From Aurantimonas sp. Leaf443 (lineage in GTDB: Bacteria; Pseudomonadota; Alphaproteobacteria; Rhizobiales; Rhizobiaceae), in contig NZ_LMRD01000006.1 of the NCBI RefSeq assembly GCF_001425575.1, positions 126,513 to 190,512 on the forward strand: a stretch of DNA of 64,000 nt. The letters run 5' to 3'. Positions 48,994 to 51,308 of this stretch are shown here, one piece after another; position 1 is the stretch's first letter, and each line of letters starts with the position of its first letter. A model generated the notes under the pieces. The model searched no databases and was not told where the DNA came from. It saw only the letters and a program-made list of their open reading frames with translations. A program made the translations under genes and the position numbers.

Positions 48994-49302
48994 ATGTCGC
49001 GCGCTTGCGAACTCACGGGCAAGGCCGTCCAGTCCGGCAACAATGTCAGCCACGCGAACAACAAGACGCGTCGCCGCTTCCTGCCGAACCTGTGCAACGT
49101 CACGCTCATCTCCGACGCCCTCGGCCAGCGCGTGCGTCTGCGCGTCTCGGCGAACGCGCTACGTTCGGTCGAGCATCGCGGCGGCCTCGACGCCTTCCTG
49201 CTCAAGGCCCGCGAGATCGAGCTTTCGCAGAAGGCCAAGCTCCTGAAGCGCCAGATCGCCAAGAAGGTCGCCGCCGCCGCTCCGACGAGCGAAGCGGCCT
49301 GA
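48994..49302 (+). CDS. rpmB: Ribosomal protein bL28
   Basis: A 102-residue bL28 of the large ribosomal subunit. It opens [29 protein letters not shown] and contains [20 protein letters not shown]. The C-terminal tail (about 70-102) is the longer alphaproteobacterial form. AAGGTG precedes the ATG. A strong terminator lies about 50 bp downstream. Confidence 0.97.
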
Positions 49303-49351
49303 TCCAGCGAAGTCCCGGCCGGTCTCGACCGGCCGACCGACGCGCCATTCC

Positions 49352-49388
49352 GGGATCGGCGGCCTTGCGGCCGGCGGTCCCTTTTCTT
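49352..49388 (+). terminator. Rho-independent terminator of rpmB
   Basis: A 13-bp stem (49352-49364 with 49369-49381, one mismatch and one wobble), TTGC loop, then TTTTCTTT. Confidence 0.85.
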
Positions 49389-49479
49389 TGATGCCGGCGG
49401 CGCCGCGAGGGAGTCGTCCCTGCCGTTCCGGCCCTCACGCCCGACATCCCCGCGCCGCCGCGCGCGGGACGCCCCGACC

Positions 49480-49512
49480 GCTGGTGCCATAACCCAGCCT
49501 AAAAAAATGGAA
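49480..49512 (+). promoter_or_regulatory. preQ1-I riboswitch controlling yhhQ
   Basis: A compact H-type pseudoknot. P1 is GCTGG (49480-49484) with CCAGC (49494-49498). The loop TGCCATAAC ends in the C (49493) expected to read preQ1. An A-rich tail (49501-49507) is followed by TGG. Loop CCAT (49487-49490) can pair with tail ATGG (49507-49510) as P2. The layout parallels the Thermoanaerobacter tengcongensis aptamer (CTGGG...AGTAACCCCAG...AAAACAAGG). P2 takes in G509-G510 of the Shine-Dalgarno GGAA that lies seven bases before the yhhQ ATG, so ligand binding should block translation. The downstream gene is a queuosine-precursor transporter, the expected target. Confidence 0.8.
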
Positions 49513-49519
49513 CGCCCCG

Positions 49520-50221
49520 ATGGCCCGATCCGTCTCGCTTTTCTCCACGCCCCTCCTGCCGGCCACGGCCATGGCGGTCGTGGTGCTGGCCTCCAACATC
49601 CTCGTCCAGTTTCCGGTGCCCTGGAGCGTCGGCCCGCTGGCGCTCGGCGACATCCTCACCTTCGGTGCCTTCACCTATCCCTTCGCCTTCCTGGTGACGG
49701 ATCTGACGAACCGCCTGCACGGGCCGCGCGCGGCGCGCCGGGCGGTCTATGCGGGTTTCGCGGTGGCGGTCGCGACCTCCATCGCCATGCCGCCGCTGCT
49801 CTTTGCGGCCGGGCTCCTGCCCTTCGAGACGACGGGCGAGCGGCTCGCGCGCATCGCCTTGGCCTCGGGCACGGCCTTCCTCTTCGCCCAGCTCCTCGAC
49901 ATTGCCGTCTTCAACCGCCTGCGCGGCCGCGGCTGGTGGAAGGCGCCGGCCTTCGGCTCGGTCTCCGGCTCGCTTCTGGATACGGCGGTGTTCTTCAGCC
50001 TCGCCTTCGCGCCGGCCTTCGTCTTTCTCGGCGCGGGAGACGAGTTCGCGCTGGAGAGCGCGCCGCTCCTCGGCCTGTTCGCCACCGAGGTTCCGCGCTG
50101 GATCTCCTGGGCGCTCGGGGACCTGACGGTGAAGCTCCTGATCGCGGCCTTCGCGCTCGTGCCCTACCGGGTCGTCGTGGAACTGGTGCTGCCGGCCGAC
50201 AGGGCGCGCCTGCGCGCCTGA
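49520..50221 (+). CDS. yhhQ: Queuosine precursor transporter (YhhQ/VUT family)
   Basis: A 233-residue membrane protein of the COG1738/VUT family with about six TM helices, importing preQ0/preQ1 (or related queuosine precursors). Family blocks: ASNILVQFPVPW, GDILTFGAFTYPFAFLVTDLTNRLHGPRAARRAVYAGF and the second half WISWALGDLTVKLLIAAFALVPYR. It is preceded by a preQ1-I aptamer overlapping its Shine-Dalgarno, so it should be shut off when preQ1 is plentiful. Convergent with the phytase-like gene. Confidence 0.93.
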   Translation: MARSVSLFSTPLLPATAMAVVVLASNILVQFPVPWSVGPLALGDILTFGAFTYPFAFLVTDLTNRLHGPRAARRAVYAGFAVAVATSIAMPPLLFAAGLLPFETTGERLARIALASGTAFLFAQLLDIAVFNRLRGRGWWKAPAFGSVSGSLLDTAVFFSLAFAPAFVFLGAGDEFALESAPLLGLFATEVPRWISWALGDLTVKLLIAAFALVPYRVVVELVLPADRARLRA

Positions 50222-50246
50222 GGGCAGCGCGGGTCGGAGGCACGCC

Positions 50247-51308
50247 TCACGGCGCGCGCGGCGCGTCCAGCCCGGCGGCCTTGCCGTCGTCCACGAGGCG
50301 GAATTCCAGGACGATGTTGCGCTGGAGGAAGGAGCCGTTGTCGTCGGAGACGAGCGTCAGGCGCGTCGCGCCCGCATCGTCCGTCCACACGTCGAGCCCT
50401 TCCATGTTGTCGATCTCGTCCGAGAGGTCGGCCTCGAAGATCACCGGTCCGGTGACGACGGCGCCCGGGCGGATCGTCTCGCCGGCGATGCGGCGGATGC
50501 GGCTGCCGAGTCCGCCGAACGGGCCGGTATAGCGCCGCTCCAGGAGCAGGAGGTCGCCGTCCGGCAGGAAGGCGCCGTCCGTCACGTCCCAGTCCGTCTC
50601 GCGCTCCACCGTGAAGGGGCCGTTGCGGCGGCCGCCCAAGAGGCCGGCATAGAGGCGCCCCTGCGTGTCGAGCGAGCGTTCGGACACGGCGACGAGGGCG
50701 CCGGCGAGCGGGCCGTCCTTCGGCGAGGCGGCGATGGTCTCGATGCCGCGATTTGCGCGCAGCTCGCGGCGCGGAATCGGCAGGGGCACCGGACGGCCGG
50801 GCGCCGCGAAGGGGGTGGCGGCACCGCGATAGGACAGGATGCGGTGGTTGCGCTCGAAGCCGACGAAGACCTCGTCGCCGCGAATGGCGAGGGCTTCGGC
50901 GTCGGCCGAGGCCTTGCCGCCCATGTCCTCGCCCTGCGCATCCAGCATCGGCGCCATCACGGCATCCTCGATGCCCTTCAGCCGGCCCGCCTCGTCCCGC
51001 CGGAACGCCCCGGCGAACCAGACGCCGCTGTCGGTGACGGCGAGAAAGCGGCGGCCGCCGTCGCGCAGGCGCATCGACGAGATCCCCTTCAGGCGATTGT
51101 CTCCGGAGCTGAACTGCAGGCCGCCGATAAATTCGAGCGCCCCGTAGCGCGTGCGCCCGGACGTGCGCGAGAAGGCTTCGATACGGCTCGCCGTCACCGC
51201 GATGGGCGACGCGCCGCCGACGACCGGCGCGCGGGCCGAGGAGGGCAGGGGCGCGAGGATCAGAGCCGCCAGAGCGACACCGGCAAGGCGTGTCGACAGA
51301 TGTCTCAC
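50247..51308 (-). CDS. Exported esterase-like phytase-family protein
   Basis: A 353-residue protein with a signal peptide (about 1-26, ARA). The mature part is a beta-propeller-like domain of the esterase-like activity of phytase family. Segments include [66 protein letters not shown] and [24 protein letters not shown] with many acidic residues for metal. Substrate uncertain. Its ATG overlaps the cobT stop (51305-51308), so it is coupled to the cobalamin operon. Confidence 0.88.

Follow-up and report, generated by a model that had tools for sequence, protein, structure and literature searches.

The gene yhhQ is controlled by various classes of preQ1 riboswitch in different bacteria (PMC5372724). 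The closest described system to the locus examined here is the class I (preQ1-I) type III aptamer in the yhhQ leader of E. coli, for which a preQ1-bound structure has been solved (PMC10622847); a type III structure is cited as PDB 8fza in a review (PMC11625349). As described in PMC10622847, this aptamer has a P1 helix of 5 to 6 bp and a P2 helix made of the pairs U11-A28, C10-G29 and C9-G30, the ceiling of the pocket is formed by U11-A28 with C8, base triples of U7 and C8 belong to the pocket, and preQ1 is read by A27 and C14 (C15 in wild-type numbering); the review adds U6 as a class I contact (PMC11625349). The structural report also describes it as the smallest natural aptamer, with a preference for preQ1 of about 138-fold, states that the E. 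coli YhhQ protein prefers preQ0, and describes type III as almost exclusively gamma-proteobacterial (PMC10622847). The loop of the T. tengcongensis aptamer, as deduced from the numbering in PMC10622847 together with general knowledge of that RNA, comprises 10 nt.

Results

Layout of the yhhQ leader in Aurantimonas sp. Leaf443

The sequence analyzed, hereafter called the window, is a stretch of 64,000 nucleotides from Aurantimonas sp. Leaf443 (contig NZ_LMRD01000006.1), whose named relatives Aureimonas, Jiella, Mesorhizobium, Rhizobium and Agrobacterium suggest that its family is the Rhizobiaceae in the broad sense. An original prediction, made from the letters alone, placed in front of yhhQ a compact preQ1-I riboswitch with a pseudoknot masking the Shine-Dalgarno sequence. 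Direct reading confirmed all of the elements and coordinates claimed, and the downstream gene was confirmed as VUT/YhhQ by its match to PF02592 (Vut_1/YhhQ, E 7.1e-27). The features are as follows.

49480-49484, + strand: 5' strand of P1, GCUGG (direct reading)
49485-49493, + strand: nine-base loop TGCCATAAC (RNA UGCCAUAAC), ending in C49493 (direct reading)
49485 and 49487-49490, + strand: U49485, equivalent of U6, and C49487-U49490, 5' strand of P2 (by comparison with the E. coli structure in PMC10622847)
49492 and 49493, + strand: A49492, equivalent of A13, and C49493, equivalent of the specificity C (by the same comparison, PMC10622847)
49494-49498, + strand: 3' strand of P1, CCAGC (direct reading)
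49499-49506, + strand: L3, CU (CT at 49499-49500) followed by the A-run (direct reading)
49506, + strand: A49506, presumed counterpart of E. coli A27, which contacts preQ1 there (by comparison with PMC10622847)
49507-49510, + strand: 3' strand of P2, AUGG, its AUG being out of the yhhQ frame in the window
49509-49512, + strand: probable Shine-Dalgarno sequence GGA(A) of yhhQ, 8-11 nt 5' of the ATG at 49520 and half within P2
49520-50221, + strand: yhhQ, VUT/COG1738 queuosine-precursor transporter, 233 aa (PF02592, 95.1 bits)

Positions 49480-49510 read GCTGG-TGCCATAAC-CCAGC-CTAAAAAA-ATGG, followed by AA-CGCCCCG and the ATG at 49520. ATGG at 49507-49510 is complementary to CCAT at 49487-49490, and the final A of the A7 run at 49501-49507 doubles as the first base of ATGG. 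The span from the first base of P1 to the last base of P2 is 31 nt in the window, 29 nt in the common form of the family and 35 nt in E. coli; L161, a type III leader with an imperfect P1, also spans 29 nt.

The open reading frame 5' of the element (48994-49302) encodes ribosomal protein L28. GC-rich inverted repeats followed by CCCTTTTCTTT, at 49310-49392 and 3' of the L28 gene, look terminator-like by eye; a scan of 49250-49540 for promoter and terminator consensus sequences reported nothing. An overlapping open reading frame of 341 aa (49507-50532) opens at the out-of-frame pseudoknot AUG, and a gene caller could consequently pick the wrong start or frame.

Detection of the element by Rfam and by purpose-built models

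No Rfam family was matched in the window at the gathering score except one tRNA elsewhere, and no relevant match appeared there at E 10. RF00522 (PreQ1), nominally the preQ1-I family, had no match over the whole genome at E 10; at the gathering score no match was obtained in 20 relatives, and at E 10 none of relevance in a further leader (L049). The yhhQ leader of E. coli K-12, in which a preQ1-I type III riboswitch is proven, served as a control and was likewise without an Rfam match at E 10. The original prediction had named the lack of a covariance-model hit as a refutation; since RF00522 matches neither the window nor the proven E. coli leader, its silence is no argument against an aptamer, and Rfam was dropped as an uninformative arbiter.

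Thermodynamic (minimum-free-energy) folding of the hairpin alone was unremarkable (z -0.83) and does not stand out, so that the support for the element is comparative. The pattern CTGGTNNCATNNCCCAGNNTAAAAAAATG, composed after the sequences of the relatives were known and allowing up to 3 mismatches, occurred once in the window and in none of 100 dinucleotide shuffles; the exact pattern was absent from viral contigs. A model built from 35 leaders (R2), excluding the window, every CCAGC-type and every UGCC-loop sequence, matched the window at 49479-49512 with 36.5 bits (E 6.1e-8 in 101,500 bases searched), and also matched leaders L304 (26.6 bits) and L002 (17.7 bits, E 0.011). A second model (R1) was built from 56 leaders, the window's own included. 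The flanks at 49453-49475 and 49511-49519 are conserved at 0.02-0.29 bits.

Distribution of the element in the family and beyond

At E 0.01, R1 matched 358 of 394 genomes of the family, belonging to 101 of its 109 genera, nearly always with one match each; among the R1 matches listed, at least 3 of the 358 are weak (E 0.007-0.008) and at least 3 genomes have two matches. The element is present in 206 of 223 related yhhQ leaders, and conservation of the pseudoknot among relatives, the absence of which had been named as refuting the riboswitch, was thus found. The 223 leaders come from two collections in which some species occur twice, amounting to 180 distinct 46-nt leaders, and the 17 without the motif were left out of the motif counts. 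Nine of these 17 belong to a sample of 143 genomes (L014, L217, L257, L285, L286, L301, L307, L308 and L311), and eight are from Pseudovibrio, Pannonibacter, Roseibium or Faunimonas (L051, L053, L056, L061, L064, L070, L075 and L095).

We found yhhQ in 143 of 151 sampled genomes of the family, and on inspection of each leader the element was located at yhhQ in 134 of the 143 (29 of 30 loci, with the variant L002 counted, and 105 of 113). The eight sampled genomes lacking yhhQ had no R1 match, save two weak ones (E 0.007-0.008). Small genomes (1.1-2.6 Mb) account for six of the nine that have yhhQ but no element, and L301 has no element at its leader, yet its genome (G005) has an R1 match at E 1.9e-5. 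Apparent degenerate remnants were noticed in L311 (about 144-180) and L307 (about 161-185), from two small genomes of genus g7 with no QueF match, suggesting a switch that is decaying along with the pathway; the R2 scores of the two remnants were at chance level (E 1.5 and 3.1).

Beyond the family, matches were few and weak. Ten of 385 genomes matched in the sample of the class, namely the window's own and nine weak ones (22-27 bits), and seven of 199 in the sample of the order, namely six of the window's family and one weak one (23.1 bits); the genus-level sample consisted of the window's own genome (1/1). Inspection of the ten weak outside matches showed that nine lacked the loop. The tenth (L116), a hairpin CUGG-UGGCAUUAC-CCAG in an unrelated genome, lacked the A-run and was taken as chance.

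Conservation and covariation

Since the search expression imposed CUGG, CCAG, the G-C closing pair and the A-run, their conservation is partly forced. The search left the loop free at the equivalents of U49485, C49488, A49489, U49490 and C49493, and these were identical in all 200 nine-base loops, including the U after the 5' strand of P1 and the C before its 3' strand that are hallmarks of class I; the remaining 6 of the 206 loops have ten bases. The closing G-C pair and the A-run, also class I hallmarks, are present as imposed by the search expression, and the complementarity of P1 and P2 is consistent with a predicted H-type pseudoknot with an A-rich tail. As to the gene context, the element stands at yhhQ (PF02592), a queuosine-associated gene, at the frequency given above.

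The 3' strand of P1 is CCAGG in 200 of the 206 leaders (CCAGGA in 179 of the 206) and CCAGC in six, and all six CCAGC-type leaders have the fifth P1 pair equivalent to G49480-C49498. In the CCAGG type, CUGG is preceded by A in 102 leaders, G in 87, T in 10 and C in 1, and a Watson-Crick pair is possible at the fifth position in 1 of 200 and a U-G pair in 10 of 200.

The P2 core CAU:AUG is present in 56 of 56 aligned leaders, an invariance which alone proves little because AUG is needed for coding too; the fourth pair is G-C in 12 of these, C-G in 9 and unpaired in 35. Over the whole set, the base after AUG depends on the loop class. It is A in 51, C in 28, U in 16 and G in 3 leaders with UUCCAU loops (98 of 206), as compared with C in 91 of 91 leaders with UGGCAU loops and G in 17 of 17 with UGCCAU loops. 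The fourth P2 pair (equivalents of 49487-49510) can therefore form in 108 of 108 loops with G at position 7 and in 3 of 98 with U at that position; the fourth pair accompanies the loss of U7. The loop class changed at least 12 times on a larger FastTree tree and 5 times on a smaller one. On well-supported branches there were only three contrasts; of 200 pairings, 197 had all three in the predicted direction, with a median p of 0.25 in the sign test, and with so few contrasts lineage effects may contribute to the coupling.

Just 5' of P1, at the equivalents of 49475-49478, a partly conserved CUCC (0.3-0.6 bits) was observed mainly in UGGCAU leaders; it could pair with the AGGA Shine-Dalgarno sequence in the free state, or mark the transcription start.

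Comparison with the aptamers of E. coli and T. tengcongensis

The E. coli yhhQ leader reads UUGGG-UUCCCUCAC-CCCAA-UGGUUAAUCAA-AAAGG, with a loop of 9 nt, and the UUCC form of the family reads CUGG-UUCCAUCAC-CCAG-GAUAAAAA-AAUG. In the P2 core of the family, C10 is replaced by A and G29 by U, which amounts to one compensatory pair and turns AAGG into AAUG. The element resembles the E. coli aptamer in its gene, its nine-base loop, the equivalents of U6 and C14, the U11-A28 ceiling pair and the A-rich tail, as well as in the three-pair P2 of the UUCC class and a translational platform within P2. A type III loop is pyrimidine-rich, opens with UU and has AC before the 3' strand of P1; UUCC occurs in 98 of the 206 leaders, and the window has UGCC and AAC. 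Unlike type III, P2 has AAUG in place of AAGG, and in most of the family an AUG is paired instead of the Shine-Dalgarno sequence; four Watson-Crick pairs make up P1 in most relatives, in contrast to E. coli. Two of the three loop classes, including that of the window, replace U7 and one of them also C8, and these U7-less classes gain a fourth pair in P2, formed with the base that follows AUG. We therefore class the element with preQ1-I, as a variant whose nearest kin is type III, and not as type III proper, since AAGG is absent from P2 and the window has AAUGGA.

For comparison, we examined 30 leaders, that of E. coli and those of 29 Pseudomonadota from classes other than the window's, chosen as the top matches of E. 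coli YhhQ in a phylum sample of 249 genomes. The type III form was found in 27 of the 30, with all five P1 positions pairable in 18 of the 27; L171, L172 and L181 lacked it.

The L3 of the window is probably equal in length to that of the T. tengcongensis aptamer. The window shares with the type II aptamers of T. tengcongensis and B. subtilis an AC before the 3' strand of P1, as described for them in PMC11625349, an A-rich L3 and an H-type pseudoknot; it differs in a U-A ceiling pair versus G11-C30 in T. tengcongensis (PMC10622847). The original prediction had regarded the loop as shorter than that of T. tengcongensis and the aptamer as a minimal variant. The loop has 9 nt versus the 10 nt deduced for T. 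tengcongensis, but the loop is equally short, at 9 nt, in the type III aptamer proven in E. coli, and thus no new minimum is reached.

Presumed start codon and Shine-Dalgarno sequence of yhhQ

We found that the AUG on the 3' strand of P2 is in frame with yhhQ, with no intervening stop, in 203 of the 206 leaders. In most relatives, seven bases separate this AUG from an AGGA that overlaps P1. These data suggest that in most relatives the P2 AUG is most likely the yhhQ start codon and AGGA its Shine-Dalgarno sequence, and the signal usually masked would then most likely be the start codon. CUGG is preceded by A or G in 189 of the 200 CCAGG leaders, so that the G after CCAG has no standard partner; this looks like selection keeping the Shine-Dalgarno sequence out of P1.

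The three exceptions to the in-frame AUG, namely the window (L001), L002 and L304, are all of the CCAGC type. In these leaders AGGA is absent, the equivalent of G49480-C49498 adds a pair to P1, and 3' of AUGGA or AUGGAU there is an AUG at +13 that shares the yhhQ frame (in L304 also at +7). The other three CCAGC leaders (L012, L031 and L032) have the P2 AUG in frame and, 15 nt further on, an ATG or GTG that is also in frame. On a tree of YhhQ, the CCAGC state changes at least 3 times and the frame at least 2 times. In the window, GGA at 49509-49511 within the pseudoknot probably serves the start 13 nt downstream of the P2 AUG. The exceptions are most simply read as leaders in which masking was rewired from the start codon to the Shine-Dalgarno sequence. 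The masking of the Shine-Dalgarno sequence, as originally predicted, thus remains plausible for the window, with GGA at 49509-49511 and ATG at 49520, but the in-frame AUG in 203 of 206 leaders points to the start codon for the family at large.

Queuosine genes

QueF and TGT are both encoded in the window's genome, where preQ1 is therefore probably synthesized and consumed, in keeping with feedback on a precursor importer. QueF was found above the cut-off in 84 of the 151 sampled genomes, one of these (G090) by a short low-scoring match resembling FolE, and no match above the cut-off was found in 67. A link between QueF and the motif had been hinted at by 26 hand-picked genomes and was not upheld in the 151-genome sample, in which, as tallied by hand, QueF occurred in 74 of 134 motif-bearing and 3 of 9 motif-less yhhQ genomes. 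Since QueF does not track the motif, many relatives may obtain their preQ1 by salvage.

Discussion

We regard the element as very probably a preQ1-I riboswitch with type III as its nearest counterpart, in a version that Rfam misses. Overall, we give a probability of roughly 0.85 to a class I preQ1 riboswitch near type III acting as a translational off-switch of yhhQ. The original assignment to preQ1-I is upheld by the comparison with the E. coli type III leader and by the family-wide conservation, and stands without an Rfam match. Whereas the sequence, its conservation, the reading frame, the compensatory changes and the gene context are observed directly, preQ1 binding, the direction of switching and the start used are inferred. 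P1 (GCUGG/CCAGC) and the short P2 (CCAU with AUGG) would enclose preQ1, with C49493 recognizing the ligand, U49485 and A49506 contacting it and the A-run lying along P1. When preQ1 is abundant, the closed pseudoknot would hide the initiation signals of yhhQ, which would lower the import of queuosine precursors. For the majority of the family, what is hidden would be the AUG in P2 plus the AGGA overlapping P1; in the window, the fifth P1 pair would replace AGGA, the P2 AUG being out of frame, and GGA at 49509-49511 would act as the Shine-Dalgarno sequence for the +13 start.

It is conceivable, though rather unlikely, that the preQ1-I-like fold has a shifted ligand, such as preQ0 or another 7-deazapurine imported by YhhQ. 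The preference of E. coli YhhQ for preQ0 (PMC10622847) would be in keeping with this, as would the two loop classes lacking U7, and in one case C8, of the E. coli pocket, and the 67 of 151 genomes with no QueF match above the cut-off, which may take precursors from outside. However, the equivalents of U6 and C14/15 are invariant in all 200 nine-base loops, an adenine equivalent to A27 is present (within an A-run imposed by the search expression), and E. coli type III still favors preQ1 about 138-fold (PMC10622847). Considerably less probable is a conserved ribosome-binding site that acts free of ligand, either as an A-rich enhancer with a hairpin fixing the translation level of yhhQ or as the target of an sRNA or RNA-binding protein. 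The overlap of the element with the presumed Shine-Dalgarno sequence and start codon and the unremarkable simple folding would agree with such a site, and our literature search found no experiment on a copy from the window's family; yet it would account neither for the close similarity to the E. coli aptamer solved with preQ1 nor for the loop bases that never vary, the compensatory replacement of C10/G29 by A10/U29, or the dependence of the base following AUG on loop base 8, which holds in 108 of 108 G7 loops. Chance complementarity in a GC-rich leader can be dismissed: three- and four-base complementarities are common and the hairpin alone, without the A-run, also occurs in the unrelated L116, but the comparative data refute it, with 0 of 100 shuffles matching and 206 of 223 relatives conserving the element between poorly conserved flanks.

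For the preQ1-I riboswitch that we favor, the proposed capture of the start codon and its rewiring in the window's lineage are the most interesting part, and were missing from the original prediction. We consider it slightly better than an even bet that the Rhizobiaceae in the broad sense possess a distinct preQ1-I subtype of about 29 nt, in which aptamer, Shine-Dalgarno sequence and initiation codon are one RNA, the P2 strand supplies the start codon, codon 2 opens with a base that covaries with the loop, and Shine-Dalgarno masking arose by rewiring in two lineages or more (the window with L002, and L304) through the loss of AGGA and a 13-nt shift of the start. A partial parallel is the S. 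meliloti metA SAM-II leader with AUG1/AUG2 described in PMC9373788, also a rhizobial leader in which the start used lies 3' of the AUG nearest to the aptamer; it differs in ligand and class, and its start is 74 nt downstream versus 13. Our literature search found no paper that describes this element for Rhizobiaceae or places a start codon within the P2 of a preQ1-I riboswitch; the alignments of the taxonomy of McCown et al. 2014 may include some of the sequences. If this reading is correct, preQ1-I sensing, invisible to Rfam, reaches most of a large soil- and plant-associated bacterial family, and includes a natural riboswitch that sequesters the initiation codon itself. Since close relatives seem to use either kind of masking with a near-identical aptamer, the two modes of translational control become directly comparable.

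A further element was noticed in family f25, presumably Rhodobacteraceae, in which all nine leaders (L189-L197, from the same 249-genome sample) pair a loop CCG with a tail CGG. It is preQ1-I-like, of the form (C/A)AAG-UN..CCG..C-CUU(G/U)-..AAAA-CGG(A/G), with a probable Shine-Dalgarno sequence within P2; Rfam gave no relevant match to the f25 leaders at E 10. Three lineages (type III, the window's family and f25) thus preserve the pairing with three different sequences, which amounts to few evolutionary events however many genomes are counted, and the f25 leaders are possibly a second unannotated alphaproteobacterial preQ1-I lineage.
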